Source: a virus
Virus record (IMG/VR): IMGVR_UViG_3300025732_000328
Span: 1-21,069 of that record
DNA length: 21,069 nt
Reading direction: 5' to 3' (one strand)
The translations under genes were made by a program, and so were the position numbers. The notes below the pieces were generated by a model. It was not told where the DNA came from. It was given only the letters and a program-made list of their open reading frames with translations, and did no database searches. How positions within the stretch are numbered: position 1 is the stretch's first letter; the number at the start of each line of letters is the position of its first letter. Of the stretch, positions 156 to 21,069 are shown piece after piece.

Positions 156-168
156 GGAAATACGCGCC

Positions 169-372
169 ATGGCAATCCTGCAATTTAATCTTTACGAAGG
201 CCTTGCATCGTACCAGCTGGGGCAGGCGATCCGCATCGCCCCCGCCCTGCGGGAAGTGATCGAAGACTATCGGGCCGAAGGCCTGAATGATCGGGAGATC
301 GTCCAGATCATCGCACGGGTCATCGACCTGATCGACGAAGAACGCGAAACCGAAAAGGGGACAAAGCAATGA
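169..372 (+). CDS. Small hypothetical phage protein (67 aa)
   Basis: The protein is acidic and mostly helical in appearance (starts MAILQFNLYEG, ends EERETEKGTKQ). It has no Cys, no signal peptide and no membrane segment. The start is supported by TAAGGAAA upstream. The stop overlaps the start of the next gene as ATGA, so the two are probably translationally coupled. The initiator A is also the last base of a CGCGCCA heptamer (163-169), one of the repeats dispersed through this window. I do not recognise the family. It is probably one of the small early phage genes in a short rightward operon that ends at the terminator near 640. Confidence 0.7.
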   Translation: MAILQFNLYEGLASYQLGQAIRIAPALREVIEDYRAEGLNDREIVQIIARVIDLIDEERETEKGTKQ

Positions 373-596
373 ACACGTTTGATGCCATTATGATCGCAGA
401 GGGCGTGGAACCCGCCTCTTACGACGAACAGCAGGCTGCATGGCAGCACCTGATCGACACGGGGGTCTGTTGGAACCTTCAAGGGTTCTTTGGCCGCACA
501 GCCAAGGACCTGATCGACCGGGGGGTCTGCAGCCCTCCACCAGCCCGCCCAGCGCCATCGTCGCCACACAGCCCGCTCCACACCATGCATAACTAA
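369..596 (+). CDS. Small phage protein, resembles the DUF7417-type family
   Basis: This 75-aa protein has two similar short units: LIDTGVCW near residues 28-35 and LIDRGVCS near 48-55. They are separated by a segment reading NLQGFFGRTAKDL. That pattern matches a small, widespread phage protein I recall as DUF7417, whose function is unknown; the number is from memory. The family usually ends just after the second unit. Here a Pro/Ser/His-rich tail of about 20 residues follows, which may be a local extension. The start overlaps the upstream stop by 4 bases (ATGA). It is the last gene before the terminator at 622-651. Confidence 0.7.
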   Translation: MNTFDAIMIAEGVEPASYDEQQAAWQHLIDTGVCWNLQGFFGRTAKDLIDRGVCSPPPARPAPSSPHSPLHTMHN

Positions 597-621
597 TAAT
601 CCTTGCATCCATGCGGATTAG

Positions 622-651
622 CGCCCCTCAGAAGCCTCTGGGGGGCGTTTT
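622..651 (+). terminator. Rho-independent terminator of the left rightward operon
   Basis: An 11-bp stem (622-632 paired with 637-647, containing one T-G wobble) closes a 4-base loop and is followed directly by TTTT. It lies 25 bases after the stop of the 75-aa gene and 17 bases before the end of the oppositely oriented primase gene. The T-tract is on the + strand only, so it should stop rightward transcripts. No equivalent T-run follows on the - strand. Confidence 0.85.
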
Positions 652-668
652 CCTTATGATCTTGCGGA

Positions 669-1556
669 TTAGTCTGCCCAGTCTGATCCTACAGCTTCCG
701 GGATCATCACATTGACCCGGAGGTTATCCTTTAGCTTCAACCTTCGCGCCAGAGCGTAGGCCGCACTTTGCCCGGTAAATGATTCGTCGTTATCCCCGAA
801 CACATAGACCTCTTCGACCCCAGCCGGGGCCTGCCATGCTGCAAGCCTGTTGGCATTGATCGTAGACCATACCGGCATCTTAAACTTCTGCGCTGCAGCC
901 ATAGCCGTCTCAATTCCCTCCGCAACGCCTAACAGGCCATCGCGCGGCTCCCAGAGCCTGATCGCGCACCCCTCCGGCAGGCTACCCGGCATAACCCGGC
1001 GCGTGACCTTCTGGCCCTCTGCCGTCAAATAGGTCAGGTGGCAGTTCACAACTGAACCATCGTTTGTACGTACAACTGACACCATGGCAGGCATGCGGGT
1101 CTTAGATCCTGCCTCCCAGCAATCCAGCACTTCGCGGATCGCATTAGAGCGCCAGTGACGGCCAAGGCGACGTGTTAGGTATCTACTAACAGGCCCATCG
1201 TCTGCAGGCCGCTGTGCGCGCTCCCAGAGGCTTTTAATGGCATGCATCTCCTTGGCAGTGTCCCGCTCCTGAACCCGCACGGCAGGCACATACATGGCGC
1301 GCTGCTTTACCTCTTCCAGCACTGTTGCCACAGGCTTACCCGTGACCTTCGTTACAAGCATAACTCCATCGCCAGATCCGCAAGAATTGCATATCCAGTC
1401 ACCCACCCCGTTTTTATCGTCAAATCGGAATCGGTCTTTCCCGCCGCATATCGGGCAGGGGCCGTGCCTCTTATTCAGGTAAGTAGATGCGACGCCCAGC
1501 TCTGGGAGCAAACCGCGCCAACGGCCTTTCGCTATTTCCCGCACGCTTTGATTCAT
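669..1556 (-). CDS. DNA primase, P4-type zinc finger plus Toprim
   Basis: This 295-aa protein would make RNA primers for phage DNA replication. A zinc-binding motif lies at residues 31-60 (C34, C37, C56, C59; HGPCPICGG then WICNSCGSGDG), typical of phage P4 alpha-type primases. A Toprim-like domain follows: LLGVAEGIET near 208-217 supplies the acidic residues, and GDND at 254-257 the metal-binding pair. It ends with SDWAD, as in related primases. There is no helicase domain. That activity is probably supplied by the SF2 helicase encoded immediately upstream. The start at 1556 follows a GAGGCGGG site and matches the expected distance to the zinc finger. It places the first 86 bases inside the helicase gene in another frame. 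Confidence 0.93.
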   Translation of the reverse strand: MNQSVREIAKGRWRGLLPELGVASTYLNKRHGPCPICGGKDRFRFDDKNGVGDWICNSCGSGDGVMLVTKVTGKPVATVLEEVKQRAMYVPAVRVQERDTAKEMHAIKSLWERAQRPADDGPVSRYLTRRLGRHWRSNAIREVLDCWEAGSKTRMPAMVSVVRTNDGSVVNCHLTYLTAEGQKVTRRVMPGSLPEGCAIRLWEPRDGLLGVAEGIETAMAAAQKFKMPVWSTINANRLAAWQAPAGVEEVYVFGDNDESFTGQSAAYALARRLKLKDNLRVNVMIPEAVGSDWAD

Positions 1557-3009
1557 TTTCCCGCCTCTTTGCTTTCACGATATTGTGGTGCTTAATCCAT
1601 GACATTGTTTCAGGCGATATCGTCGCACTGGGTGCTACACTTCCATGCGGTGGGCCTTTGCCCATCCTATCCTTGTATGCGTGATAAGCCCAACCTCTTT
1701 TCCATCCGCGACCGTCAGCGTAATTCAAAAGCTCTGAATAAAATTGCACCTTTCTTTCGACAGGCCAATCTTTCGCTTTCACTGCTTTGTCGCGCGTTAG
1801 TTCGTATAATTCGCCTTCTGCATTTTCGACATCGCTTCGTGGAGTAGGAACGAAGCCACACGCCGGACATTCGCGCACTTTCGGCGGGCGCAGAAAAGAG
1901 CATTGCGGGCATTCTTTCGGCAATCTTTCTTTTGGTTTTGGTTCAGCACGTTTGCGTTCTCCATCATCTAATTCAGTGTGGTGAATTTCAGTTACAAATC
2001 CTAAGCGTAGTGTCGTGTCGCTATGATCTAATATCAGGCAATGATCTTTGCCCTTTGCAGTGCGCAGACCGCGACCAATCATCTGCGTATACAGAATTTC
2101 ACTTTTTGTAGGGCGCGCCAAAATGATGCATCGAACGTCTGCATCAAAACCTGTGGTAAGAACGCCAACATTGCATATGACCTTTACATCGCCATTGTCG
2201 AAACGCTTCACGATTTCATTGCGCGCAGGACGATCCGTATGCGCATCCATATATTCCGCGACAACACCAGCGTCGATAAATTGCTGTTGAATGTGTTTCG
2301 CATGCGTTCTGTTTACAGCGAAGCAGATCGTCTGCCTATTTTCACCGCGCTCCATCCATGTCGAAACAATATCAGCCACCAGCTGGCCTTGATCCATTGC
2401 ATCAGCAAGGCCTTTCAATTCGTAATCGCCTGCAACCGTTTTGACGTTCTTAAGATCAGGATGCGCTGGCGCGAACACTTTGAAGTCTGACAAGTGGCCG
2501 CGTTCGATCAGATCCTGCGTGGTCACGGCAATGATCAAATCGTCCCAGATCTTGCCCATTCCTTTCTGCCATGGTGTAGCAGTCAGCCCGACGAAGGGCG
2601 TGTCTTTCCATTCTTCGTATCCAGCCCAATCGTGCAGGAATTTGAACATCACATGCGCTTCGTCGATGATAACCAGATCAGCCTCTGGAATTTTACGGCG
2701 CATTAGCGTTTGGATAGAGCAAATTTGCACGGGCTGTCGCCAATCCGTCATTTCATGCATGCCCTGCATCACGCCGATATCCCATATGCCGTTTGCTTGG
2801 AAGCGTTCGACGGTCTGGTCGATCAGGGATAGGGCAGGCACGCAGAAGATCACCTTACGGTCCTTCTGTCGCGCCATGTTGATGATGGCTGCAGCAATGA
2901 TCGTTTTCCCCGCGCCTGTCGGTGCCATAAGCACTGGCCGCTTGCGACCGCTGATCAACGAAGCGCGAAGAAGATCGATTGCCTTTTGCTGATAATCACG
3001 AAGATTCAT
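1471..3009 (-). CDS. SF2 DEAD/DEAH-box helicase
   Basis: This 512-aa ATP-dependent superfamily 2 helicase (ResIII/UvsW-like layout) probably acts at phage replication forks or on recombination intermediates. Visible motifs are the Q-like LRDYQ at the N-terminus, Walker A APTGAGKT (29-36), DEAH (116-119), motif III TAT (143-145), TTGFD (285-289) and motif VI QMIGRGLR (309-316). A four-Cys zinc ribbon follows (C367, C370, C381, C384), which is common in phage helicases of this type. The C-terminal 28 codons overlap the primase start. The gene overlaps the upstream DUF3310 gene by 4 bases (ATGA), so DUF3310, helicase and primase appear to be one translationally coupled unit. The exact strand polarity and substrate cannot be told from sequence. 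Confidence 0.95.
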   Translation of the reverse strand: MNLRDYQQKAIDLLRASLISGRKRPVLMAPTGAGKTIIAAAIINMARQKDRKVIFCVPALSLIDQTVERFQANGIWDIGVMQGMHEMTDWRQPVQICSIQTLMRRKIPEADLVIIDEAHVMFKFLHDWAGYEEWKDTPFVGLTATPWQKGMGKIWDDLIIAVTTQDLIERGHLSDFKVFAPAHPDLKNVKTVAGDYELKGLADAMDQGQLVADIVSTWMERGENRQTICFAVNRTHAKHIQQQFIDAGVVAEYMDAHTDRPARNEIVKRFDNGDVKVICNVGVLTTGFDADVRCIILARPTKSEILYTQMIGRGLRTAKGKDHCLILDHSDTTLRLGFVTEIHHTELDDGERKRAEPKPKERLPKECPQCSFLRPPKVRECPACGFVPTPRSDVENAEGELYELTRDKAVKAKDWPVERKVQFYSELLNYADGRGWKRGWAYHAYKDRMGKGPPHGSVAPSATISPETMSWIKHHNIVKAKRRENESKRAGNSERPLARFAPRAGRRIYLPE

Positions 3010-3209
3010 TTTTCACCATATTGGTGCTGCAGAATGAAATGCAGATATTGGATTGCTTTTTTGATGTCTTGCGCGCCGCCTTTTTCGCGGTGGCGCGTGA
3101 CATATTTAATGACATTGCCTTCGCAATATCCCATTCCGTTTTCCATGATGTAGCGGATTGGCTCTATCGCTTTGTTGCGATAATGATCACCGCCAACCTG
3201 ATCAGACAT
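3006..3209 (-). CDS. DUF3310 domain protein
   Basis: This 67-aa protein matches DUF3310, a small phage family whose biochemical role is not settled. Members have been called SaV-like or nucleotide-kinase-like. The family signature is visible: GGDHY at residues 6-10, PI at 17-18, EGNVIKYVTRH at 30-40, KGG at 43-45 and a C-terminal helix with KAIQYL. The start has a strong upstream GGAGAAAGAAG. The gene overlaps the helicase by 4 bases and itself overlaps the end of the preceding 56-aa ORF. Its position next to helicase and primase suggests a replication or nucleotide-metabolism role, which is inference from context. Confidence 0.92.
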   Translation of the reverse strand: MSDQVGGDHYRNKAIEPIRYIMENGMGYCEGNVIKYVTRHREKGGAQDIKKAIQYLHFILQHQYGEK

Positions 3210-3672: not shown

Positions 3673-3766
3673 ACAGTCAAAACCCGCCTGAACCCCGTAG
3701 CGTCATCGCAGTCGGCAAAGCCGGGATACGCGCCATGGTTTGGGCCTTTTGCGGGATTCGACTTGC

Positions 3767-3904: not shown

Positions 3905-4102
3905 TCAATTAGCCAATTCCATCTCCAGAAGCTTCATTGCCATTGGAGGCATGGCGCGTTCGCCGGAAAGCCACTTGTAGATGGTTCTTTCATGTACGCC
4001 TAAGAGCGCTGCGGCCTCTTTATTCAAGATCTGCTTTTCCCACAGCAACCGTGCCAGCTGAACACCTAGGTCAGTATTGCTGTCCATTTTCTTTTTTCCC
4101 AT
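3905..4102 (-). CDS. Helix-turn-helix DNA-binding protein (XRE-like)
   Basis: From the chosen start at 4102 the protein is 65 aa (starts MGKKKMDSNTDLG). An HTH reads NKEAAALLGVHERTIYKWLS, with the recognition helix around HERTIYKWL, then GERAMPPMAMKLLEMEL. This fits an XRE/Cro-type or plasmid-style transcription regulator. AAGGA lies 8 bases before the ATG at 4102, so I prefer it over an upstream in-frame ATG at 4147. The gene overlaps the preceding gene by 32 bases. The ligand and operators are unknown. The nearby intergenic stretch at 3398-3904 is the obvious place to look for targets. Confidence 0.8.
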   Translation of the reverse strand: MGKKKMDSNTDLGVQLARLLWEKQILNKEAAALLGVHERTIYKWLSGERAMPPMAMKLLEMELAN

Positions 4103-4274: not shown

Positions 4275-4291
4275 GGCCCCCTCTGGCGCGT

Positions 4292-4492
4292 TTAGAATTG
4301 CGGGTCGAATTGTTCGCCCATACCAAGACGCTCTTTCAAACGATCCACGACGCGCCAATAGTAGGTGGCCGCGTATGTGTCGCCTTCCCATTCCGCTTCT
4401 TTAGCAAGGCGGATGGTTTCCTTTAACGTTTCAGTCAGAAGAGGCACTGATGGCCCCTTTGACACGTTGTTAGGCAGTTCAAGCGTTGTCAT
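4292..4492 (-). CDS. Hypothetical small protein (66 aa)
   Basis: The protein starts MTTLELPNNVSKG and is mainly helical, with TLKETIRLAKEAEWEGDTY and VVDRLKERLGMG. The A/Y/W-rich centre (YAATYYWRVVD) resembles a short helical hairpin. It overlaps the end of the upstream 65-aa gene by 14 bases, and its ribosome-binding site (GAGGAGATGG) lies within that gene. No family is recognised. Confidence 0.72.
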   Translation of the reverse strand: MTTLELPNNVSKGPSVPLLTETLKETIRLAKEAEWEGDTYAATYYWRVVDRLKERLGMGEQFDPQF

Positions 4493-5907: not shown

Positions 5908-6253
5908 CCTCTATCCCCTCTATTTCGATCCTTACTGGAGGACCGCTTTCAACCCATCGAACATGCAAGTCACGACACATGTGATCATCTTCAATCACGC
6001 GCGCTGCAACTAATACGTCTAGGATTGCCTTACAAATGTTATCGATATCGCGGCGTCGTTTGTCTGGCGCGACAGCCTCTATCAAGATCTTAAATCGACC
6101 TTGGATAGAGCGGGACTTAACCTGCACAGCTAATTCCCATGCTGCCGCTTTTTTCCAGTTCACATATTCTGCGCTCCTGTAAACTCCTCCACCTTTCTTG
6201 GCGCGCCAAAGGCGATTAACGCTTGGCGGATAAGGCAGAGTAATTTCAATCAC
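5891..6253 (-). CDS. rusA: RusA-family Holliday junction resolvase
   Basis: This endonuclease cleaves four-way DNA junctions during recombination and genome processing. The family signature near the N-terminus (LPYPPSVNRLWR) and the metal-binding centre PDKRRRDIDNICKAILD are clear. From the chosen start, the acidic residues D69, D71 and D89/D90 are available for metal binding. I prefer the GTG at 6253 because it forms a GTGA overlap with the upstream regulator stop, has a GGGA box 9 bases upstream and aligns with the usual family N-terminus. An ATG at 6268 would add five residues (MGCSC). Together with ERF and YqaJ on the other strand it completes a recombination set. Confidence 0.93.
   Translation of the reverse strand: MIEITLPYPPSVNRLWRAKKGGGVYRSAEYVNWKKAAAWELAVQVKSRSIQGRFKILIEAVAPDKRRRDIDNICKAILDVLVAARVIEDDHMCRDLHVRWVESGPPVRIEIEGIEGGKEI
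6199..6208. repeat. TGGCGCGCCA palindrome (copy 1)
   Basis: This is the first of four exact copies of a 10-bp palindrome, here inside rusA and extended to a 12-bp palindrome (TTGGCGCGCCAA). It consists of two overlapping copies of the heptamer TGGCGCG that is scattered through the window. Confidence 0.85.
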
Positions 6254-6468: not shown

Positions 6469-6477
6469 GAATTCCCC

Positions 6478-6592: not shown

Positions 6593-7030
6593 ATGCAGAT
6601 GTCCGATACCATTGCCGCTCTGGCAGAAGCGCTTTCTAAGGCACAGGGGGCTATCGATGACGCCACCAAAGCCGGCATCAACCCGCACTTTAAATCCAAG
6701 TATGCCGATCTGGCCTCTGTGCGCGCCGTGATTCGCGGTCCACTGTCGGCCAATGGCCTATCTGTTGTTCAGCTTCCCCGCGCCCAAAACGGCGTGGTCG
6801 AAGTGGATACCATGCTCCTGCACAAGACGGGGGAGTACATCAGCGAAACGTTGCGCATGCCTGTGGCGAAGCCGGATGCCCACGGCATTGGTTCTGCCAT
6901 TACCTACGCACGGCGCTACGGCTTAATGTCGATCCTATGCATCGCAGCTGATGATGATGATGGCAATGCAGCTGTGCAGGCTCCTGCGGCCTTTACCCGC
7001 ACCATGAAATCAGAAAAGGATTTTGCGTAA
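6593..7030 (+). CDS. erf: ERF-family single-strand annealing protein
   Basis: This recombinase pairs complementary single strands, functionally like P22 Erf or lambda Bet. The ERF signature is visible: INPHFKSKYADLASV (29-43), LHKTGEYI (76-83) and GSAITYARRYGLMSIL (100-115), followed by an acidic patch of four Asp. At 145 aa it is shorter than many family members and has little C-terminal region after the core. AAGGGG lies 6 bases before the ATG. The stop overlaps the exonuclease ATG as TAATG, so annealing protein and exonuclease are made together, as in two-component phage recombination systems. Confidence 0.95.
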   Translation: MQMSDTIAALAEALSKAQGAIDDATKAGINPHFKSKYADLASVRAVIRGPLSANGLSVVQLPRAQNGVVEVDTMLLHKTGEYISETLRMPVAKPDAHGIGSAITYARRYGLMSILCIAADDDDGNAAVQAPAAFTRTMKSEKDFA

Positions 7031-7656
7031 TGGAACAAGGCTCTCCTGAATGGTTTGCCGCGCGTGCTGGCAAGGTTACTGCTTCGCGTGTGTCAGATAT
7101 CGTTGCCCGCACTAAAAGTGGCTATGCCGCTTCGCGTGCAAATTACATGGCAGAGCTATTGTGCGAACGTTTGACGGGACAGCCTGCGCCGTCCTTTCAA
7201 ACGCCAGCGATGGCATGGGGGACGGCAAATGAACCAGTGGCGCGCCAGCGTTTTGTAGAGACGTTTGGCATGCCAGTGGAAGAGGTGGGGTTCGTCCCCC
7301 ATGCTACCATCGCTAATGCTGGCGCGTCCCCTGATGGATTGATCCAGCACGATGGCCTAATCGAAATCAAATGTCCGCAAACGACAACGCATTTGGAAAT
7401 CATGGCGGGCGGGAAGATCCCTGCCCGTTACATGTTCCAAATGTATTGGCAGATGGCCTGCACAGGCCGTGACTGGTGCATGTTCGTTTGTTTCGATCCG
7501 CGCCTGCCAGAACCAATGCAGCTGTACAATGAAGAGGTTCCGCGCGATGACAAAATCATCGCAGAACTAGAAGAAGAGGTGATCAAGTTCATTGAAGAGC
7601 TTAATCACAAAGTCATGGTAATCAAATCCAAGTATGGGGTGACTGACAATGTCTGA
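7030..7656 (+). CDS. YqaJ-family viral recombinase exonuclease
   Basis: This 208-aa PD-(D/E)XK exonuclease resects double-strand ends to give single strands for the ERF protein. The N-terminal GSPEWFAARAGKVTAS is the family hallmark. WGTANEPVAR supplies the conserved Glu (E68), SPDGLI supplies D102, and IEIKCP supplies E112 and K114. The length is normal for phage YqaJ/lambda-exo relatives. It overlaps ERF by one base and the next gene by 8 bases. All catalytic residues are present, so it should be active. Confidence 0.95.
   Translation: MEQGSPEWFAARAGKVTASRVSDIVARTKSGYAASRANYMAELLCERLTGQPAPSFQTPAMAWGTANEPVARQRFVETFGMPVEEVGFVPHATIANAGASPDGLIQHDGLIEIKCPQTTTHLEIMAGGKIPARYMFQMYWQMACTGRDWCMFVCFDPRLPEPMQLYNEEVPRDDKIIAELEEEVIKFIEELNHKVMVIKSKYGVTDNV
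7238..7247. repeat. TGGCGCGCCA palindrome (copy 2)
   Basis: An exact copy of the 10-bp palindrome inside the YqaJ exonuclease gene, in a different coding context from the rusA copy. Confidence 0.85.
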
Positions 7657-7897: not shown

Positions 7898-8214
7898 TTA
7901 ACGAAAACATTCCCCTTTCAGAGCAGTATCGCACCACGGCTGAAGCTTGGGTCGATGCAGATAGCGCTGCCAGCCTTCTGGAAGAAACGAAGTCAGCTGT
8001 GCTTAACCGCATGATGCTGGACACGAAAGAGAAGGCGGTCAACCGCGCTGAAATGATCGTGAAAGCGTCTGATGATTGGCGCGATCACGTTACCAAGATT
8101 GTGGAGGCCCGTAAGCGGGCTTCCATCCTTCGCGTGCAAATGGAATACATCCGCATGAAGTTCAATGAATGGCAGTCACACGAAGCAACCCGTAGAGCGG
8201 AAATGAAATTATGA
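7894..8214 (+). CDS. Conserved helical phage protein (106 aa)
   Basis: The start codon is TTG and forms a 4-base TTGA overlap with the upstream stop. The protein is almost entirely charged helix (starts MINENIPLSEQ). The conserved-looking centre has SKAEM-like spacing (NRAEMIVKASDDWRDHV) and the C-terminus reads WQSHEATRRAEMKL. I recall similar proteins next to phage annealing proteins and exonucleases, but no function is established. The 4-base overlap on each side places it firmly in the recombination operon. It may be an accessory factor. Confidence 0.8.
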   Translation: MINENIPLSEQYRTTAEAWVDADSAASLLEETKSAVLNRMMLDTKEKAVNRAEMIVKASDDWRDHVTKIVEARKRASILRVQMEYIRMKFNEWQSHEATRRAEMKL

Positions 8215-8519
8215 AAACGGATGAAATTGAAAAAGCTACACATGAAGAATATCAACAGGCCATGATCGAAATGGTCACAAAGATCCTGATGTGCGTTGAT
8301 GGCCACGATGCTTTATTTGGCATGCAGGCTCTTATGGGCGCGCTGGCCAACATCGTGATCGATTCCGCGCCAGACAAAGAAGCAGCAACACGGGCTGTCA
8401 TGGGGCTGTCCATCACTACAGTGCGCGCCATTGAACATGCTTTTGAATTACTGGCCGACGAAGAGCGCCTTGAAGGAGAAGAAGCTGCAACCCACGAAGT
8501 GCCGTTTAGAATGCAATGA
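8211..8519 (+). CDS. Hypothetical protein (102 aa)
   Basis: The protein begins MKTDEIEKATHEEYQQAM and continues with a hydrophobic helical segment (ALFGMQALMGALANIVID, about residues 34-51). It ends in an acidic helix and HEVPFRMQ. The hydrophobic part is amphipathic with Ala/Met and is more likely a buried helix than a membrane span. It overlaps both neighbours by ATGA. No family is recognised. Confidence 0.78.
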   Translation: MKTDEIEKATHEEYQQAMIEMVTKILMCVDGHDALFGMQALMGALANIVIDSAPDKEAATRAVMGLSITTVRAIEHAFELLADEERLEGEEAATHEVPFRMQ

Positions 8520-8869
8520 AGCGCGTCCGTATCACCCCCAAAATGCGTATTGAAATTTTCACGCGCCATGAAGGTTACTGCCACATATGCAACTTCAAGG
8601 TACGTCCGGGGGAGGAGTGGGATGTCAGCCATGAAATCCCTCTTGAGGCTGGTGGTGCTGACGATGAGTCTAATTGGCTTGTTGCACATCGTCATTGCCA
8701 TCGCATCCATACGGCCACTGTTGATGCCCCCCGTATCGCAAAAACAAAACGAATGCGGGCCAAGCATCTGGGTATTAAAACAGTTCGGTCTCCCTTGCCG
8801 GGAGGACGAAAGAGTAAATGGAAAAAGAAAATGGACGGCACCGTAGTTCGCAGGGATGAAGATGGGTAA
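8516..8869 (+). CDS. HNH endonuclease
   Basis: This 117-aa protein carries an HNH nuclease module: a zinc Cys pair (C22, C25 in CHIC), the first His in WDVSHEIPL (H39), the central Asn in DESNW (N53), and the His/Cys cluster AHRHCHRIH (58-65). A basic tail with GRKSKWKKK should help bind DNA. It could be a free-standing homing-type nuclease or a phage DNA-processing enzyme. Its tight overlaps (ATGA with the upstream gene, 8 bases with the next) argue that it is a resident operon gene rather than a recent insertion. Confidence 0.9.
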   Translation: MKRVRITPKMRIEIFTRHEGYCHICNFKVRPGEEWDVSHEIPLEAGGADDESNWLVAHRHCHRIHTATVDAPRIAKTKRMRAKHLGIKTVRSPLPGGRKSKWKKKMDGTVVRRDEDG

Positions 8870-10082: not shown

Positions 10083-10205
10083 ATGGCTGAATTTATATGG
10101 GGTATCGTTTGTGGCGCGATTGGTACGCTTACAATCATCCTTGCGATGATAGCTTGGCAGATCATTGATGATCACCGCAAGGCGATTAGGGACGATCAGT
10201 CGTGA
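10083..10205 (+). CDS. One-helix membrane peptide (40 aa), possible holin or spanin-like partner
   Basis: A 40-codon ORF starts MAEFIWGIVCGAIGTLTIIL and ends with a charged tail (DDHRKAIRDDQS). Residues about 4-27 form one strong transmembrane helix with a short N-terminus. TAGGTGA lies a few bases upstream. It is the last rightward gene before the leftward islet and precedes the exported transglycosylase, so a lysis role such as a minimal holin is possible. Many phages also carry unrelated single-helix peptides. The last 10 bases overlap the end of the convergent 86-aa gene. Confidence 0.65.
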   Translation: MAEFIWGIVCGAIGTLTIILAMIAWQIIDDHRKAIRDDQS

Positions 10206-11388: not shown

Positions 11389-11406
11389 CAAGCAATGGAG
11401 ATTATG

Positions 11407-12052: not shown

Positions 12053-13526
12053 CGCGCGCATCAAGTTCTTTCACCGCGTTAATAAGAGTGAAAACAAGAG
12101 CCGAAGAATCAAGCTGGTAGACTTCTGTGGTCTGTCCAGTATTTGGGTCTTTGTATGGGCGCGTCGTAATAATTTCTGGAACAGCGCTATTTAAAACGTC
12201 CTGCGCAATAAGACCTGTGCGCGTTACGTTATCATTTGGCGTTCCATATGCGCCATTATATTTAAAATCTACTGGCGACAACGTGTTGATTGCATCAGTA
12301 GACTTTGTATATGGCGTCACATCTTTCTTTGTGCGCGCATCAGAATAAATAGTGAAGTTAGCTTGCAGCGCATAGGGAACCGCGCCAGAACCAATGACAA
12401 GAAGATTTTTATAAACACTAAAGTTTGTGTTATCCCCCGAAAACACACCAATGTTTCCAACAGCTGCTCCAATAGACGGCGGAGTAGCGCTGCTGTTATA
12501 AATAATATAGTTTGAACTACTCCCAAAAAATATTTGGCTAGAAGAAATAGTTGGCGCAGATAATGTCGGATTTGTTGCAAAAACTACTGCTCCAGTTCCG
12601 GTCGTGGATGTTGTACCTGTTCCGCCATTCGTAGTTCCAAGAACACTGGTCCCAACATCCGTTGCTGATGCAAGATTTATCGTTGCAACACTAGTGAAGG
12701 CAGCTGTCGTCCCCGGTGTTTTTAAAAATCCTGCTGTAGCAAATCCTGCTCCACCAACACCAGTTCCACCATTCGCAACACCAAGCGTGCCACCAAGAAC
12801 TGTTGACGTATTTGTTGAATTAAGTGTTGATGGAGTAAAAGTTAATCCAGTAGTGCCGGAAAAACTTATACTTGAAAGACCGCCACCGCCTCCAGATGCT
12901 GTTGAATCAATGGTAATTGTTCCATCACCATTGGTAATTGTAATATTCGTACCAGCAGTAAGCGTGGTTTTTGCTAGCGTGCCATCTGCTTTTCCAATTA
13001 AAAGTTGGCCACTAGAATACCCGCCTGCATATCCTGTTCCACCAATCGCCGCTGTAACAGGCGATGTCACGGCTAATGAATTGCCTGTCAGCGTAAGGCC
13101 GGTGCCTGCTGTAATTCTGGAATCATCAGCAAACTTAATGTCAGTCCCGTCTGAATAGACAAGCGCTTTTTTGCCTGTTGGAATTGCAACACCAACACTA
13201 CCAGCTGCTTCCGTAACAATATTTTGGGTTGCGTTTGATTGATTATCAACAATCCACATACCACCAACAGCTGTGGTTGCGCTTAAATATTTAAAAGGAA
13301 TAATTATATATCGTGAAGCACTTGGGTAGCCAGTTAAAACAATACGCTGGTTCTGCGCTTCATCAATTGTTAATGTGATGTCTGTCGCGCCAACAGTAAA
13401 AGACGCTGCGCTGCCAAGAGCCTTATCAATAATGTCCCAGTCCTGATTGACAGGAACATCCCATGTATTTGGGTATTCGCCGTTAGCTGGCTTATTAAGC
13501 TTCTTGTTGTCGGTATATGTAACCAC
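12021..13526 (-). CDS. Tail fibre or spike with C-terminal S74 chaperone domain
   Basis: This 501-aa protein is Gly/Thr/Ser-rich and strongly beta-repetitive (repeated NGGTG and GTTG-type turns at 250-320), as in phage receptor-binding fibres. Residues 395-501 are a peptidase S74 intramolecular chaperone: S395-D-A-R-T-K400 is the SDxRxK cleavage motif with its Ser/Lys dyad. GLIAQDVLN and a C-terminal coiled coil (KELDARVKALEAKVG) follow. Such domains trimerise the fibre and then cut themselves off. The start is GTG, 6 bases after AAGGAG. It is the last leftward virion gene here, and its end overlaps a convergent gene. Confidence 0.9.
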   Translation of the reverse strand: MVTYTDNKKLNKPANGEYPNTWDVPVNQDWDIIDKALGSAASFTVGATDITLTIDEAQNQRIVLTGYPSASRYIIIPFKYLSATTAVGGMWIVDNQSNATQNIVTEAAGSVGVAIPTGKKALVYSDGTDIKFADDSRITAGTGLTLTGNSLAVTSPVTAAIGGTGYAGGYSSGQLLIGKADGTLAKTTLTAGTNITITNGDGTITIDSTASGGGGGLSSISFSGTTGLTFTPSTLNSTNTSTVLGGTLGVANGGTGVGGAGFATAGFLKTPGTTAAFTSVATINLASATDVGTSVLGTTNGGTGTTSTTGTGAVVFATNPTLSAPTISSSQIFFGSSSNYIIYNSSATPPSIGAAVGNIGVFSGDNTNFSVYKNLLVIGSGAVPYALQANFTIYSDARTKKDVTPYTKSTDAINTLSPVDFKYNGAYGTPNDNVTRTGLIAQDVLNSAVPEIITTRPYKDPNTGQTTEVYQLDSSALVFTLINAVKELDARVKALEAKVGP

Positions 13527-13536: not shown

Positions 13537-15396
13537 TTAGATGTTCTTTTTAGCCACAGCCAGCGCCTTAACGACCGTTTCGTCTGGCGCGTCTAATATC
13601 TCTTCAGTCGTCTTCTGGTGATACTTATGGGCCTTCTCTGCAGCTGCCACAAGGCGCTGCGCGATAGACCCAGTCACCTTACCACCAGTGGCGCGCTGTT
13701 CACGCTCTTCTGGTGGTATTTCATCCATCCCCGTCAATACACCTGCTTGATATCCAAGCCCTTTAGTAAATTGCGGCACACCGCCATATACGCGCTCCCC
13801 TAAAGAGCCTACTTGGCCAGTTCTATAAGCGATATTTCCACCAATCCGTGGCGAACCTAAAACAACGCCAGCAGCTAATTCAGGATGCATTGCAACACCT
13901 GCTAAACCACCGCTAGTCAAAACACTGCCTAACCACCCACGCCAACCTTGGGGATAAATAGCATTTAACTCTTGCCCAGCAAGCATGTACGGAATGTCAG
14001 GATCATATTTAGCCAATTCAGCAATTAATGTTTTTTTGTACGGGCTTTCAGGCGAAGATAGCAACTTTCTTAATTTTGCAGTTGATGTTCTCCCGCTAGC
14101 TAAATCAGCCCTAAAACTTTTAACCAAATCTTGTGCTTGCCGCCATTCTTCGGTCATTTTAGCGTAATTAGGATCTGCCTCTTTTAGCGTATCAAGAGCC
14201 GCTTTTCGCAAATTATCAACAATTCTAAATTCTTTACTTCCCGGCAAAAGATTATTTTCTTGCGTAAAATCCTGTAAAGATTTTTTTAACGTGTCAAAAC
14301 GCTCTAAATCATGGGATACATTTGGCTTATTTTTCCAATTATCTAAAAGAGCATTGATGCGCGCAAATGTTTGAATTTTGCTTGAAGATGGATCAAATGC
14401 TTCCCCTTTGGGAAAGGCAATGTTTTGGGATTCCTTAAGCGCTGTATCAATTTTATCATATTTAAGAGGTTGACCCTTGTTTAATTTTTCATAATTTTCA
14501 ATGTATTTTTGACTTGCTGTTTTAGCAGCTGAATTTGTCGCAGTATCGACGGCTTCAACAAGTTCCCCCCCAACAGATGGCCCATTAGACATATGCCGGA
14601 CAAATGCTTTATTTCCTGTCAACCCAGCTTGCGTTGCCGTATCAAATGAACTCATAGGCCTCCCACTTTGAAGCCATAAACCAAAATTAACAGGCTTTGA
14701 TACTATTTGGGCGGTTAAGGTTGGCGCTTTTAAAGCAAGACCAATTGGGTCAGTGGCGCGGCCTACTGCTTGTACCGCTTCACCAGTCTTCCCAAGAATT
14801 CCCGGCAATCTTGCCAAACCTGCGCCGCCCAGTGAAGCAACGCTAGACACATCAGCCGCAGCAAGAAAAGGATTTTCCGCAACAGTTCTTTGAATGCGTG
14901 GCCATGAACCATAACGTTCTTTTTGAAGTTCCCAAAATGCATCTGCAACTGCTTCATCCTCTGCTTTTTGTTCTGGTGATTGTTGCATTCCAACAGCACC
15001 AGCTACTTTTGAAACAACCCCTTTACCAAGACCTTTAATGCCCTCCCACGTTTCCGCAGGGTTCATAAACGGTTCAACAAAAGTTTTTCCGGCTTCATAA
15101 GCTTTCTTGGGCAGATCTTTTACAATCTCTGAACCCCATTCGCTAAGCGGCATTTCCTTTGGTTCTTGACGGCCAACAGTCAGTGTAGGAAGGGCCTGTT
15201 GTTGATCTGTTTCTGTTTCAGCTTGCTGTGGCGCGCCAGAAGGTTGTGGCGGTGGTGCGCCAAGTTTTGGCTGTTCACCACGTAACAAAGCATCCATTCG
15301 GGATGCAAATGGATTTTCAGAAAACTTTTGTTCTTGATTTGTGGTTTCCGAAGAATTACCACCAACCAATGTTTGCATTCGTTGTGAATAATCCAT
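13537..15396 (-). CDS. Large virion-associated (internal/ejection-type) protein, 619 aa
   Basis: I start at the ATG at 15396, which overlaps the upstream stop by one base; a GTG one codon earlier is also possible. The N-terminus is Gln/Pro-rich and disordered. A long Ala/Gly/Val-rich middle and helical stretches follow, then a hydrophobic glycine-rich part (residues about 480-530, GGLAGVAMHPELAAGVVLG). The end is RATGGKV (568-574) plus a charged helix. I see no enzyme motif. Size, position after the 1513-aa protein and membrane-like segments fit internal proteins ejected with DNA. That is inference from context, not homology. Confidence 0.8.
   Translation of the reverse strand: MDYSQRMQTLVGGNSSETTNQEQKFSENPFASRMDALLRGEQPKLGAPPPQPSGAPQQAETETDQQQALPTLTVGRQEPKEMPLSEWGSEIVKDLPKKAYEAGKTFVEPFMNPAETWEGIKGLGKGVVSKVAGAVGMQQSPEQKAEDEAVADAFWELQKERYGSWPRIQRTVAENPFLAAADVSSVASLGGAGLARLPGILGKTGEAVQAVGRATDPIGLALKAPTLTAQIVSKPVNFGLWLQSGRPMSSFDTATQAGLTGNKAFVRHMSNGPSVGGELVEAVDTATNSAAKTASQKYIENYEKLNKGQPLKYDKIDTALKESQNIAFPKGEAFDPSSSKIQTFARINALLDNWKNKPNVSHDLERFDTLKKSLQDFTQENNLLPGSKEFRIVDNLRKAALDTLKEADPNYAKMTEEWRQAQDLVKSFRADLASGRTSTAKLRKLLSSPESPYKKTLIAELAKYDPDIPYMLAGQELNAIYPQGWRGWLGSVLTSGGLAGVAMHPELAAGVVLGSPRIGGNIAYRTGQVGSLGERVYGGVPQFTKGLGYQAGVLTGMDEIPPEEREQRATGGKVTGSIAQRLVAAAEKAHKYHQKTTEEILDAPDETVVKALAVAKKNI
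15229..15238. repeat. TGGCGCGCCA palindrome (copy 3)
   Basis: An exact copy inside the 619-aa virion protein gene, within its Pro/Gln-rich N-terminal coding region. Confidence 0.85.
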
Positions 15397-18300
15397 CACT
15401 GCCCCACAAAAAAGTCAGACATACCCGTATGGTATTTTAGTTTACGGCTTTGCGCATACTGTTTGAAGAACTTTTCCATCTCTTCTGGAGGTACCTGATT
15501 TGACAAAAATCCTTTTGCCAAAACTGGATCTTCAAGCATTAATTTTTTAACCAACGAAACAGAATCTAAATATTTCTGTTTATTTAAGCGTTCAAACTCT
15601 GCATAGACGTTAGCAGGATTGCTGTTTGAATCGCGATCATATTTTTGTGCAAACTGCTGCCTATGCTGATCCTTTTTGTTAAACACAAGAAGTTCAGATG
15701 TCAGTTGTGCTTGGGTATCTTTTGTAAGTTCTGGTTCTGGCATAACAGAAGCCATTCTTTGCATTGCACCAAGGGTATCTTGACCATAACCCTGCGCCGC
15801 TGCAGCTGCCAAAAATTCCGCATATTTTTGCGCTTTTTGCTTAATGTCAGCTGGCTTTGTAAAATCAATTGGAAGGCCAAAGCGCGCTGGCCATGTTCCA
15901 AGTACGGCAGATGCGGATGCAATTTTTCCAAAACCCGGACCGGTTGAAGATATCCCAGTCTGGGAAAGCGAATCCATGATGTTTTGCGCCATTTCATTAA
16001 TTACTGGTGCAATTCCGTAGGATTGTTGCGCACCATTATTAATTTTTTTCCGGTTTTCTCTTCCTTGCTCTGCAAACGATTGGCCGCCGGGAGACTGCGT
16101 TTGTTTAAAGTCTTCTCTGGCGCGTTGCACAGAACTATCATCGTATGTGACAAACGGTGATATCGGTATATTTGCACTTTTTGCAGGCTTTATTTGTCCC
16201 GGCTGGCCTTGTGCTGATTGACCACCAACAACTGTTGTTGTTCCAGCCCCTGCAGAACCAGCTTCAGTACCCGCCTGCCCAGCGGTAGCTGCACCTGCGC
16301 CTGTATCAGCTGTTCCAGTATATGCAGCTGGTTTTGCAGATGCCTGCCCCGTTTTACGGGCATAAATTTTACGCGCCAATTCAGCCCCAGATTCACCCCC
16401 AACAAGAGGCTCTTGCGTCTCCATCCAATCGGCCAAATCTTTAGTGCCACCCTTAGCAAGATAAACAATAAAATATCCGGGTGTAATTTCTTGAATAGAC
16501 ATATTGCGCGATTGGGCTAGACCCAATTGTTCACGCGATTGCGATTCAGCAATTTCTTGTTGTCCTTTTTCAGCCATCATGTCGGCTGCGGCAGCTGCCC
16601 CCAATCCTTCAAGAATTGCTGGAACAGCAAAACGGCTCTTGGACTGTGCCATGCCAGCAAGGCCAGCAAACAATGGGCGAACAAATTGGCGATCAGTAAG
16701 ATAGTCTGACCATCCCTTAAATGGCGCGCCAGTGCGGTAATTAGTCGGAAGAAGGCCAGCAAGCGTTCCTTTTTCTTCTTCTCCATTGACTGTATTTACG
16801 CGCTTTCCGCTTTCATCAATATATGATTCAGCTGGAGCTACAGAGCGGCGAACATTTGCTGGCGCTCCTTCAAATGGGCGTGCTTCAATTCCTCTATGCG
16901 ATGCCTTAACTTCGTCAAGAGAATGGAACCGTGTTCCACCTAGATCTAGACCGCCTACACGACCCCATTCAGGTGCCTGACGCTTAAGAGCGTACTGTGA
17001 TATTGGACCCCAAAAATTCTGAACATTTTCAAAACGTGGGTCCATATTGCCGGATTGAATATCTTCAAACGCAGCTTTTGCTTGCTGATAACGCGGATCA
17101 TCAGGTTTAATCCGCATCGGGTTGTTGTTTTCTGTTTGCCAAGGTTCAAATTGATTTGGCGCTAAAACAACATTTTTATAACTGTCACCATACTTTCCAG
17201 ATTGCAAACGGTTATGGATCACATGCGCAATCCCGCGCGTTTCATCTGGATCACCAGTTGTTTCAGCTGCAGCTGTTCTGATTGCGTAATCGATGTCTTG
17301 CATATCGGGATCAACGCGACCGCGCGTTTGATATGCTGGGCGGATACCACCGCCATATTCCCGTGTGGCGCGTTCATAATCTAAATGAAGGAAACCATCA
17401 TCATCACGATAAACAGACGATGGATCACCATATTTAGATACGTTCTGTGCAGATAGTCCAATTTGGGTTGGCCCATTACCAATACGATATTTATAGACTG
17501 GTTGGCCGTTGTCTAATTCACCAACCCGTTTCATGCCCGTTTTAAAACGTTCATCGGATGGAAGAAGAGATGCAAGAGCAGTAAGACCTTTTATTGCGGT
17601 ACCTGCCATTCCTATGGCGTTTGCCAAACCTGACCCAGATCCAGAACCGCTTTTCCCTCCACCAGCTTCATCAAGAGTATCAAACTTGTGTCCGCTTTCT
17701 GCTTCATTAACAGCTTCTGGACCATATTTATCTTCTGTTTGATAAGGAAGAATACCTTCATTCAAGGCAGATACGCCGCCTCTTGCCATAAATTGTGGTG
17801 CAACGCCGCCGCCATAAGCGCGGTTTTGATACCAATCAATAAATTTATCGTAAAAAGACTTTTCATCTGGAGAAACAGAAGATGCTTTTGTTTGTTCTAG
17901 TTTTTGTTGTTGTGGTGGCTCTGACGAAGTTGAAGTATTTTGGCCCGATTTAGAACCCTGCTTGTCGTCGTTACTTCCTGTAAGACCTTTGTATATGCGC
18001 GCTGGCATACCCTTAGATGTTGCAAGACCCTTTTCACCAAACAGCTTATCAAGCCCACCTTCTACAGTTTTGTATGCAGAAGCTGCTTGCGATAGTCCAC
18101 TTTCTTGTTGGCGTGGGGGAGAGCTTGGCGCTCTTAACTGCATAATTGGTGGAGTTTGCTGCGGAACAATACCTGCTTGCCCCGGCAAATTTTTTGCAGA
18201 TTTTGCATATGAAGCTACGTTCCCATGCGGTGTGTCAGCTAAACCAATAAAATTAAGGTATTGTTTAAAAATATCATCGCTGACGCTTGCGCTACCAGAA

Positions 18301-19937
18301 GGTACTGAACTTCCTAAAGCAAAACCTTCACGGGCACGGTGCGGGAGAACACCCCCACCTTCACTGGCGCGGTTTACAATCTTGTCGTAATCAACCGAAT
18401 CAATTCCGCCAACACGATGGACAGCATCAGGATGCTTTTCCCGCGCTTCATCGGCCATAACACCAATACGCTGCTGGTCATCACCGCCCTTGTACTTAAA
18501 GCTATAGATCGGAAGACCATCGTGGGTTTCACCAATTTCTTTAATATCTTTCTTAAGGCGGCGGTCAGACATCCAGTTATTCGGTGACGTTGTCGTTGTA
18601 GTTGAACCAGACAACGCGCCAGTACCCATAGCAATGTTTGCCAAGAACTGCGCGATCTGGAACGGATAACCACGCTCTTGCAAAAATTCGTTGTATTTAG
18701 CGGTGTCTTGCGCTTGCTGCGTTTGTTGCTGCAGTGTTCCAGCACCAATCTGTGCCTGCGCGCCCTGCAATGCTGCGGCCTGCGCTCCTGTTCCAAGGCC
18801 AGCAAGGCCGGAAGCATATTGCGACCCCATGCCAAAAAGACCCTGCGCGGCCTGCTGCATTAAATTGGCCTGTTGCGCAGACATGCCAAATTGATTTTGG
18901 GCAATTCCAGCTTGTGCTTGTGCAGCCCCCAGACCCTGACTATAAAGTTGTTGGCCAAGAGCAGATAGAGCCTGACCTTGCGACAAATTTTGGCCGAATA
19001 AAGCTTGACCTAAATTTCCGTATTGCTGTGATGCGGCAAGGTTTTGCCCAAAACGTTGTTGCGCAAGATTGGCTGCGGCCTGTTGGCCAAATTGCTGGGC
19101 CTGACGATTAGCCTGCTCTGCAGCAAGGTTAACGCCCTGCTGCTGCTGGAACATGCCAGCGGCCTGACCATATCCCTGCTGCAACAAATTGCCTAAAGTT
19201 GCTTGGTTGGCCAGCGTCTGTTGGCGCGCAAGGTTTGCCTGTGAAATTCCGGCACGATCACCACCAAACGCGCCAGCGCCAATAGCCTGCGAATTAAGAG
19301 CCGAACGCTGCGCTGCCGATTCTTGCTGCTGAAGGGCCTGCTGCGCCTCCACTACATTCTTCATGTAGGGAGACATGTACTTGTTAATCTGGGCCTGACT
19401 AAACTCTTGCGGGTTAATTGCTTGCGTAGAACCTTCAAGAAACTTTTGCGATTGCGCAAGTAAAGGATCTGCAGCCGCAAGGCCGCTACCAACATATGCC
19501 CCTGCTTGGTTCATATATGGCTGGGCAGAGGTCCCGGCTTGATTGATAAATCGTGTTGCGTCCGTCCCATACTGCGAACCAATGTTAACAGCATTAGAAA
19601 TGCCGCCAAGAGCAGTTCCATAAAGTTGGTTTGCTTGGCTTGCACCACCCGCAACTGTGTTAATAGACTGCCCATAGTATGGATTTGCCTGCCCATAAGC
19701 ATTTGTTAGAGCGCCAGATGCCTGATTGAAATATGGTTGAGCCATATTGGCAGCTTGATTAATGCCGCTAATGCCTGCCATCTGTTGTTGGTTGATGGGG
19801 GCTACAAATTGGCCCGTGTATCGCTGGAATGGCTGTTTGGCGACATCTTCTGCCCGCGCGTTGACCGCATTATATCGCGCCAGAACCTCTGGTGGGATCG
19901 TGGTCGATTGGGTGGTTGTAGATGATCCGCCGCACAT
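15396..19937 (-). CDS. Giant virion protein with two S74-like modules and a SleB-type hydrolase (1513 aa)
   Basis: Residues 1-440 are an Ala/Gln/Gly-rich helical region (MCGGSSTTT, then repeated QQ and AQ helices). A first S74-like unit starts at S457 (SDRRLKKDI, then GLPIYSFKY, IGVMADEA, VDYDKI). A second starts at S794 (SDERFKTG, then GQPVYKYRI, QIGLSAQNV, LDYERA). Residues 885-1008 match the SleB/Hydrolase_2 cell-wall hydrolase fold: likely catalytic E892 in AAAETTG, IAHVIHNRL, NQFEPWQ, GTRFHSL. The remaining 500 residues are helical with a Gly/Thr/Ala linker. I infer an ejected protein that locally opens peptidoglycan during entry. S74 units are normally C-terminal, so internal copies are odd. 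The ribosome site lies inside the GNAT gene end. Confidence 0.88.
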   Translation of the reverse strand: MCGGSSTTTQSTTIPPEVLARYNAVNARAEDVAKQPFQRYTGQFVAPINQQQMAGISGINQAANMAQPYFNQASGALTNAYGQANPYYGQSINTVAGGASQANQLYGTALGGISNAVNIGSQYGTDATRFINQAGTSAQPYMNQAGAYVGSGLAAADPLLAQSQKFLEGSTQAINPQEFSQAQINKYMSPYMKNVVEAQQALQQQESAAQRSALNSQAIGAGAFGGDRAGISQANLARQQTLANQATLGNLLQQGYGQAAGMFQQQQGVNLAAEQANRQAQQFGQQAAANLAQQRFGQNLAASQQYGNLGQALFGQNLSQGQALSALGQQLYSQGLGAAQAQAGIAQNQFGMSAQQANLMQQAAQGLFGMGSQYASGLAGLGTGAQAAALQGAQAQIGAGTLQQQTQQAQDTAKYNEFLQERGYPFQIAQFLANIAMGTGALSGSTTTTTSPNNWMSDRRLKKDIKEIGETHDGLPIYSFKYKGGDDQQRIGVMADEAREKHPDAVHRVGGIDSVDYDKIVNRASEGGGVLPHRAREGFALGSSVPSGSASVSDDIFKQYLNFIGLADTPHGNVASYAKSAKNLPGQAGIVPQQTPPIMQLRAPSSPPRQQESGLSQAASAYKTVEGGLDKLFGEKGLATSKGMPARIYKGLTGSNDDKQGSKSGQNTSTSSEPPQQQKLEQTKASSVSPDEKSFYDKFIDWYQNRAYGGGVAPQFMARGGVSALNEGILPYQTEDKYGPEAVNEAESGHKFDTLDEAGGGKSGSGSGSGLANAIGMAGTAIKGLTALASLLPSDERFKTGMKRVGELDNGQPVYKYRIGNGPTQIGLSAQNVSKYGDPSSVYRDDDGFLHLDYERATREYGGGIRPAYQTRGRVDPDMQDIDYAIRTAAAETTGDPDETRGIAHVIHNRLQSGKYGDSYKNVVLAPNQFEPWQTENNNPMRIKPDDPRYQQAKAAFEDIQSGNMDPRFENVQNFWGPISQYALKRQAPEWGRVGGLDLGGTRFHSLDEVKASHRGIEARPFEGAPANVRRSVAPAESYIDESGKRVNTVNGEEEKGTLAGLLPTNYRTGAPFKGWSDYLTDRQFVRPLFAGLAGMAQSKSRFAVPAILEGLGAAAAADMMAEKGQQEIAESQSREQLGLAQSRNMSIQEITPGYFIVYLAKGGTKDLADWMETQEPLVGGESGAELARKIYARKTGQASAKPAAYTGTADTGAGAATAGQAGTEAGSAGAGTTTVVGGQSAQGQPGQIKPAKSANIPISPFVTYDDSSVQRAREDFKQTQSPGGQSFAEQGRENRKKINNGAQQSYGIAPVINEMAQNIMDSLSQTGISSTGPGFGKIASASAVLGTWPARFGLPIDFTKPADIKQKAQKYAEFLAAAAAQGYGQDTLGAMQRMASVMPEPELTKDTQAQLTSELLVFNKKDQHRQQFAQKYDRDSNSNPANVYAEFERLNKQKYLDSVSLVKKLMLEDPVLAKGFLSNQVPPEEMEKFFKQYAQSRKLKYHTGMSDFFVGQ
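16722..16731. repeat. TGGCGCGCCA palindrome (copy 4)
   Basis: An exact copy inside the 1513-aa virion protein gene. A near copy with one changed base (GGGCGCGCCA) lies at 2111-2120 in the helicase gene. Confidence 0.85.
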
Positions 19938-19943
19938 TAATTT

Positions 19944-20426
19944 TTATCCTTCCTGCACTTGTGGATGCAGATTGTAGAGAAATACCGCCCCCTGCGGCTT
20001 GCCAAACTGCCTTTCGTAAAGGCGAACCTTAGCTTCGGTTCTAATGCTTGACATGACACCAATCAGCAAAGGCACACCCAGCGATTCAGCAACGCTTTTG
20101 GAGAATTCAACAAGCTTGCGCGCACGACCGCCTTTAGCGTTCCTGAACTCTGGCTTGATAAAAACGCAGCGTTCTTCAAGTACATCTTGATTTGAATACC
20201 ACATTTTACCCATTCTTAAAAGGACACCGCCCTCTACAGGACCGCCGGGCTTTTGAATAATACCAACAATACCAGCCTGTTGATTTAAGGCTGGCCAAAC
20301 GTCTTCAAGAACTTTTCGTGGGTCTGGATGTACAAGGCCAATTTCGGCAATCGCTGACTGCGCTGCGTCCATCACTTCATCCAGATCATCCGGCGTTCCA
20401 ATCCGAATTTGCAGATCTTCTGTCAT
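19944..20426 (-). CDS. GNAT-like N-acetyltransferase
   Basis: This 160-aa protein looks like a Gcn5-related acetyltransferase. It starts IRIGTPDDLDEVMD, typical of the GNAT N-terminus, and has a strand CVFIKPEFRN leading into a motif A-like AKGGRARKLVEFSKSVAESLG, which would hold acetyl-CoA pyrophosphate. A late strand with RLYERQFGKPQGAVFLYNL follows. The usual R/Q-x-x-G-x-G/A is present only in a loose form. Similar proteins sit in virion gene blocks of many tailed phages, and their substrate is unknown. AAGGGGG precedes the ATG. It lies 14 bases after the preceding Gly-rich gene and 6 bases before the 1513-aa gene. Confidence 0.8.
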   Translation of the reverse strand: MTEDLQIRIGTPDDLDEVMDAAQSAIAEIGLVHPDPRKVLEDVWPALNQQAGIVGIIQKPGGPVEGGVLLRMGKMWYSNQDVLEERCVFIKPEFRNAKGGRARKLVEFSKSVAESLGVPLLIGVMSSIRTEAKVRLYERQFGKPQGAVFLYNLHPQVQEG

Positions 20427-20440
20427 GTAGTCCCCCTTTG

Positions 20441-21069
20441 TTAATCCTTCTTTGGACCGGGGAGCTTTTGCAGGGTCTTGATTGTCTTGGCGCGCATTGC
20501 CTTAACAAATAGATCAAGCTCCTGATGCCCCCTGTCTAAGTCTCCTTCGCCAATACGCCGAACATCGCCCGGCGCAATAACATATTCCCCACCAGCCGCA
20601 ACGATGGGTACAGCATCTTCAATAGTGCCACCTTTTGCTTTGCCGGGGATGCCTAATTCAGCATCCATACCGGGTGTGCTACCCTTCGTTGGGATAGCCT
20701 GCATACCGGGCGCACCAGTCATTCCGGGGATACGGCTAAAGATTGTATTGGCCACCTTAAATCCGGCCATAGTGTTGCCTTCACCCATGGCCGAAATGAT
20801 ATCGGCAGGGATCACATAGGACCCAGAAGGCACATGCATGGGAAGGTGATCTGTACGGCCCGCTACGGGGCTGTGGATGGGTCCTACGTGGACCTTGGTA
20901 GTAGTGCCCGTTCCACCGCCAAAGAAGGGCGCTGCGCCGCCCTCTGCAAGGGTTGCAGGAGAGCCGCCTTCGCTGCCGGGGTTATTACCAGAACCGCCGC
21001 CATAATCAGAGCCATTGACGCCACCGGCTGTGCCACTGGCATCGGACCCTCCAAAATTGGAACCGCCGC
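20441..21069 (-). CDS. Gly-rich virion-associated protein, N-terminus beyond the window
   Basis: The frame is open from the right edge, so only the last 208 or so residues are seen. The visible N-terminal part is a Gly/Ser/Asn-rich linker. A conserved C-terminal domain follows, with VHVGPI, GRTDHLPMHVPSG and SYVIPADIISAMGEGNT. A second, similar unit reads EYVIAPGDVRRIGEGDLD, so the domain contains an internal duplication. It ends in LQKLPGPKKD. I recall this C-terminus as a conserved, uncharacterised protein encoded among tailed-phage structural genes. The function is unknown; a structural or assembly role is inferred from neighbours. Confidence 0.8.
   Translation of the reverse strand, partial: GGSNFGGSDASGTAGGVNGSDYGGGSGNNPGSEGGSPATLAEGGAAPFFGGGTGTTTKVHVGPIHSPVAGRTDHLPMHVPSGSYVIPADIISAMGEGNTMAGFKVANTIFSRIPGMTGAPGMQAIPTKGSTPGMDAELGIPGKAKGGTIEDAVPIVAAGGEYVIAPGDVRRIGEGDLDRGHQELDLFVKAMRAKTIKTLQKLPGPKKD

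Follow-up and report, generated by a model that had tools for sequence, protein, structure and literature searches.

An iterated, lineage-specific word, TGGCGCG, kept at the DNA level in a phage genome

Along the genome of the uncultured phage recorded as IMGVR_UViG_3300025732_000328, the heptamer TGGCGCG recurs about once per 475 bases, genome-wide. Is this word a by-product of composition and coding, or is it a signal, and if so, what would read it? These questions were addressed in the 21,069 bp stretch analysed here (the window), in a longer contig of the same virus and in related phages.

Word count, null models and distribution

An exact count in the window yields 49 heptamers, 24 TGGCGCG and 25 CGCGCCA, the total reported in the initial annotation. 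Its positions are also right with one exception, a word placed at 19232 that starts at 19222. The words occupy the following places by exact count, including four with the palindrome TGGCGCGCCA, in which two words overlap:

163..169, minus strand, CGCGCCA
745..751, minus strand, CGCGCCA
1295..1301, plus strand, TGGCGCG
1514..1520, minus strand, CGCGCCA
2114..2120, minus strand, CGCGCCA
2467..2473, plus strand, TGGCGCG
2870..2876, minus strand, CGCGCCA
3091..3097, plus strand, TGGCGCG
3729..3735, minus strand, CGCGCCA
3952..3958, plus strand, TGGCGCG
4284..4290, plus strand, TGGCGCG
4351..4357, minus strand, CGCGCCA
6065..6071, plus strand, TGGCGCG
6199..6208, palindrome TGGCGCGCCA
7238..7247, palindrome TGGCGCGCCA
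7320..7326, plus strand, TGGCGCG
8077..8083, plus strand, TGGCGCG
8366..8372, minus strand, CGCGCCA
8424..8430, minus strand, CGCGCCA
8562..8568, minus strand, CGCGCCA
9153..9159, minus strand, CGCGCCA
9907..9913, plus strand, TGGCGCG
10037..10043, minus strand, CGCGCCA
10112..10118, plus strand, TGGCGCG
10923..10929, minus strand, CGCGCCA
11128..11134, minus strand, CGCGCCA
11256..11262, plus strand, TGGCGCG
11642..11648, plus strand, TGGCGCG
11682..11688, minus strand, CGCGCCA
12381..12387, minus strand, CGCGCCA
13386..13392, minus strand, CGCGCCA
13585..13591, plus strand, TGGCGCG
13689..13695, plus strand, TGGCGCG
14754..14760, plus strand, TGGCGCG
15229..15238, palindrome TGGCGCGCCA
16118..16124, plus strand, TGGCGCG
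16372..16378, minus strand, CGCGCCA
16722..16731, palindrome TGGCGCGCCA
17366..17372, plus strand, TGGCGCG
18365..18371, plus strand, TGGCGCG
18615..18621, minus strand, CGCGCCA
19222..19228, plus strand, TGGCGCG
19269..19275, minus strand, CGCGCCA
19876..19882, minus strand, CGCGCCA
20488..20494, plus strand, TGGCGCG

The excess had been put at 19-fold, which holds under equal base frequencies only. Expected numbers for both strands of the window are 2.4, 5.1, 8.1, 10.5 and 14.1 under Markov models of order 0 to 4, respectively, and the excess stands at all of these orders; it amounts to 6.0-fold at order 2 and 4.7-fold at order 3, both orders at which TGGCGCG ranks first among the 7-mers. 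An order-5 model, the check originally proposed, predicts 40.5 copies against the 49 observed, but this expectation is circular and uninformative, as the abundance of TGGCGCG raises the counts of its own hexamers. Codon bias alone had been judged a poor explanation; the shuffling analysis agrees and rejects codon pairs as the cause too. In 500 synonymous shuffles inside each gene, with proteins and codon use preserved, the genes of the window gave on average 6.5 copies (sd 2.3, maximum 15) compared with 46 observed, a 7-fold excess. The same holds for G001 (L058-L060), a 52,737 bp contig of the same virus that is 99.8% identical to the window over 14.6 kb; it carries 111 copies of the word and 14 of the reversed control word, and its 101 coding copies compare with 12.8 ± 3.4 after shuffling.

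The flanking T is required, as proposed before. GGCGCG follows T 49 times in the window, while its A-, C- and G-preceded forms are at chance there and near the codon null in G001; the ratio of T to non-T in the virus is 3.8. Fewer than ten non-T occurrences had been estimated, and the actual number on both strands is 14 (A 4, C 3, G 7). The copies are spread evenly over the window (KS p = 0.90), and the spacing in G001 is random (CV 0.99 against 0.99). Also in line with the early observations, the words use all reading frames, both strands and both gene orientations, with 21 versus 25 relative to the gene strand. Called genes make up 85.5% of the window, and of the 45 distinct places 4 fall into the remaining 14.5%; an operator or promoter element is not supported, as there is no intergenic concentration. 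In G001 the two orientations are found 58 and 48 times, with an alternation slightly above chance (runs z +2.65), and 5 of 106 places are the palindrome. The earlier argument that strand balance speaks against a polar translocation signal is supported; G001 shows no polarity. Over-representation of TGGCGCG in the window is confirmed, and the earlier interpretation is partly supported.

Another word in excess in the window is CAGCTG, by 3-fold (26 versus 8.4). The gene called at 20441-20839 (20441-21069 of the window, minus strand) encodes the final part of a protein that the window edge truncates; the full form of this protein, 321 aa, is found in G001 (L059:17758-18723). A literature search found no paper on the TGGCGCG word, and the named-phage collection holds no near match to the window DNA.

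Turnover and lineage-specific variants in relatives

Searches with the helicase and the terminase gathered about 130 related loci. Many relatives contain other over-represented words, such as collagen-like repeats, which were removed by a spread test; EM motif runs picked up codon periodicity in the weakly enriched phages, the run on the contig G003 drifted as well, and all of these were left unused. In the close relatives L089, L070 and L056 (72-83% DNA identity, ~25% diverged) the density of the word is alike, 2.16 versus 2.26 per kb, but only 49% of the sites are shared with the virus; the density is hence maintained while the positions turn over. For GC-matched 7-mers 21% of the sites are common, and of the control words that occur 8 times or more, 18% were retained as well. 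Protein conservation could explain part of the higher site retention. The partner words at non-shared sites vary widely and not only by C/T exchanges; differences of two or more substitutions are frequent.

The form of the word depends on the subclade, being TGGCGCG(N), TGGCGCGT or TGGCG(A/C)GG. TGGCGCGT accounts for 57 of 70 in G003 and is also found in L047 and L011, while the octamer variant of G004 has T or G. TGGCGMGG, i.e. TGGCG(A/C)GG, reaches 36 versus 3.2 in L024/22 and 65 versus 11 in L045/36/53, and is also seen in L032. In L032 and L045/36/53, where enrichment is lower, CGGCGCG or GGGCGCG is in excess too, which leaves the motif of these groups less sharply defined than that of G001, G003 and G004. 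TG(A/T)CACG occurs in L012 and partly in G003 and L053; L012 has a different iterated word family, comprising TGTCACG (25 versus 2.9), TGACACG (17 versus 2.9) and TGGCACG (15 versus 2.7). No comparable excess was observed in L005, L019/20/15, L037, L039/40 and L028/30/49, nor in the named phages tested (Caulobacter phage DMCA, Roseobacter phage CRP-902 and a Manatee Spring phage). Contigs with related terminases from a Methylococcales MAG (L148) and a beta-proteobacterial MAG (L146) are without the word.

On the helicase tree, the trait requires 4-5 changes (shuffled mean 14) and is uniform inside tight subclades, while L005, the nearest non-self row, lacks the word. No window gene is confined to the enriched phages, a weak negative because the contigs compared are fragments. 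As the replication genes are common to enriched and non-enriched phages, the word is not set by the phage core on its own.

TGGCGCG is a genuine feature, strong and unusual, whose pattern is specific to lineages; it is a strand-symmetric, T-specific word kept at the DNA level with maintained density. The excess over the Markov and codon expectations, the T-specificity, the density kept despite turnover and the lineage variants indicate that it is probably maintained by selection. Since the excess goes beyond genes and composition, and related phages have differing versions, the word resembles a signal in the DNA that some protein reads.

Host, restriction and possible readers of the word

Five genes of the window bear on the host and on the reading of the word:

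669-1556, zinc-ribbon/Toprim primase
5383-5907, small methyltransferase-like gene
6593..7030, plus strand, Erf single-strand annealing recombinase (PF04404, 83.8 bits)
7030..7656, plus strand, YqaJ-like recombination exonuclease (PF09588, 95 bits)
11395..11892, plus strand, GcrA-like cell-cycle regulator (PF07750, 44 bits, cut-off 26.9)

The GcrA homologue and a depletion of GANTC (GAATC 48 against 116) point to a CcrM/GcrA-bearing alphaproteobacterial host, GcrA and CcrM being linked to the Alphaproteobacteria by what is generally known of the GcrA family; the initial guess of an alphaproteobacterial phage is supported. GcrA has a distant match in Caulobacter phage DMCA, and distant copies with 24-31% identity are present in many relatives. 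No tRNA gene in the virus gives a hint to the host. About 1,450 bacterial genomes were scanned, most of them from Alphaproteobacteria or other Pseudomonadota, and none has a comparable density and T-specificity; the scans covered the Pseudomonadota, the Burkholderiales-type order of G006, and the Alphaproteobacteria with four of its orders. In 337 Alphaproteobacteria the ratio of T to non-T does not exceed about 1 in any genome with substantial counts. The best genome by the reversed-word control, G804 (955 versus 125), proved ordinary, with 115 copies in 160 kb, where 67-70 are expected, and without a preference for T, and samples of G339, G139, G187, G107, G024, G083 and G897 show no comparable excess. 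An unsampled host may carry a modest Chi-like excess. In G804 (L209-L216), a small alphaproteobacterial genome, GATC (129 versus 659-906) and CCWGG (30 versus 313) are strongly depleted.

The phage appears to live under heavy restriction, as heavy avoidance of restriction sites implies frequent cutting. In the 52.7 kb of G001, CGAG is found 0 times versus 277 expected and TGAG 16 times versus 345 (order 1). CCWGG is found 0 times versus 118 in G001, once versus 159 in G003 and 0 times versus 102 in Roseobacter phage CRP-902. Its avoidance in the window and nearly all relatives, though not in Caulobacter phage DMCA, suggests widespread CCWGG restriction among the hosts. The avoided CGAG/TGAG is a non-palindromic tetramer, shunned on both strands; L056, L070 and L089 are also without CGAG (0 versus 141), and no restriction enzyme targeting this tetramer was identified. 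G003 and G004 lack CGAGG (0 versus 57 and 0 versus 30, respectively), and G003 lacks CAAGG (0 versus 163). The 6-bp palindromes GGCGCC, GGATCC and CCGCGG are missing from the window, and ACGCGT, CGGCCG, TTCGAA and others from G001 as well.

A Chi-like role had been among the roles first suggested. It is now the favoured reading, if a tentative one and unproven: TGGCGCG may be a Chi-like word that tames an end-degrading nuclease of the host (AddAB/RecBCD). A helicase-nuclease of the AddAB or RecBCD type in the alphaproteobacterial host would degrade linear DNA until the word is read. The phage would supply its own Erf annealing recombinase and YqaJ exonuclease, with no recognisable inhibitor in the early genes tested, and a word every ~475 bp would spare restriction-cut phage DNA and allow its recombination. 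As breaks fall anywhere and both ends need protection, both orientations would be useful; the octamer differences among related phages may reflect different hosts. Chi mimicry is favoured because Erf, which makes the phage 'Rec+', and YqaJ are present, restriction is heavy and no inhibitor was recognised (no Gam or Abc2 match among the early proteins scanned, a scan that covered part of the proteome). In E. coli phages with a recombinase and without a RecBCD inhibitor, Chi is over-represented, with a median O/E of 2.5 and about 0.2 per kb (PMC3784561). Against Chi, the density of TGGCGCG is 2.1 per kb, about ten times this value, and its orientation (58/48) is not biased along the replicon, whereas chromosomal Chi is polarised, although a phage need not show polarity. 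The word shows over-representation beyond composition and codons, but it is not identical with a characterised Chi word, and of the known Chi words tested (E. coli, L. lactis, S. aureus and Caulobacter GCGGTGGT) none is strongly enriched, with 4/1.8 for GCGGTGGT, 7/2.5 for GCTGGTGG and 20/12.1 for GCGCGTG, against 111/17.6 for TGGCGCG. The absence of a matching T-specific excess from the scanned genomes also speaks against it, and the Caulobacter Chi word in phage DMCA (0 copies versus 3.6 expected) argues against generality.

Nearly as likely as Chi mimicry, and like it doubtful, is a phage or host protein that binds the word on duplex DNA non-directionally, for coating, protection or the organisation of replication or packaging. 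Such a reader would fit the strand balance, the random spacing, the lack of intergenic preference and the density kept with turnover, and the word family (TGGCGCG, TGGCACG and TG(A/T)CACG; G003, L012) resembles a protein-binding motif with tolerated positions; against it, no window gene is confined to the enriched phages in the fragmentary contigs compared, and no candidate reader was found. The remaining mechanisms of the phage or host are less likely than either. If Okazaki fragments started at the word, it would have to be frequent on both strands, the encoded primase could be the reader, and the per-strand spacing of about 950 bp would suit the fragments. This is improbable, as words to one side of an origin should be polarised, yet the orientation alternates, and equally similar primases occur in non-enriched relatives; moreover, known primase recognition words have a length of about 3-5 nt. 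Slightly less improbable is that a repair bias of the host, methylation-directed or of the very-short-patch type, made the word accumulate, as in a HIP1-like iteration. The density is like that of HIP1, the virus has the small methyltransferase-like gene, and the octamers differ as alternate HIPs do among related cyanobacteria (PMC4390886). However, TGGCGCG is seldom palindromic (5 of the 106 places in G001), partner words differ by more than C/T, and the methyltransferase-like gene is also found in non-enriched relatives. The suggestion that the host shares such a word is not supported, given the palindrome count and the lack of T-specific iteration in the about 1,450 genomes.

It is very unlikely that the word is a by-product of restriction-site avoidance or codon use. 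With CCWGG, CGAG, TGAG, GGCGCC and others banned, the allowed GC-rich words would become common, and the bans are indeed extreme. Yet codon shuffling does not approach the observed count in G001, A/C/G-GGCGCG is not depleted to make room, G003 and G004 carry the word without a TGAG ban, and L037 bans CCWGG without having the word; codon bias and restriction avoidance were each rejected as sole cause. Least probable, and disfavoured, is a DNA uptake sequence or a polar translocation or packaging signal, which would match a non-palindromic word at high density, but polarity is lacking, no host carrying the word was found, and phages are not known to require an uptake word.

More broadly, and with much reserve, phages of uncultured Alphaproteobacteria might carry a rapidly changing lineage code word (TGGCGCG, TGGCGCGT, TGGCGMGG or TG(A/T)CACG) that occurs one to several times per kb and has a new host or phage protein as its reader. 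If true, phages with a common host could be told by their word, which would also hint at a DNA self-signal not described before. Few bacteria have a characterised Chi word; for the Alphaproteobacteria the literature search found one tested word, that of Caulobacter (PMC5443536). An extreme, clade-specific phage word would offer a route, from sequence alone, to guessing Chi-type signals and pairing phages with their hosts. If the reader is a phage protein instead, TGGCGCG would mark an unknown genome-wide DNA-binding system.

Comparison with known iterated words

On testable features TGGCGCG qualifies neither as a Chi site nor as a HIP. DNA uptake sequences (DUS of Neisseria, USS of Haemophilus) are non-palindromic words of similar density; unlike these, TGGCGCG is located in a phage, where an uptake word is not expected, and no transformable host is known. 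HIP1 (GCGATCGC) and the alternate HIPs of cyanobacteria are likewise spread genome-wide at about one per 0.5-1 kb, and alternate HIPs replace each other between related cyanobacteria (PMC4390886). TGGCGCG differs in being non-palindromic and in being carried by a phage, and no host genome that shares it was found; of HIP1 itself the virus has 0 copies. Compared with Chi sites, TGGCGCG is ten times denser, not polarised and of another sequence. The Chi sites of E. coli (GCTGGTGG), Caulobacter (GCGGTGGT; PMC5443536) and L. lactis (GCGCGTG) are, like it, G-rich, non-palindromic words of 7-8 bp that are over-represented and differ between lineages, and Chi is enriched in recombinase-bearing phages without nuclease inhibitors (PMC3784561).
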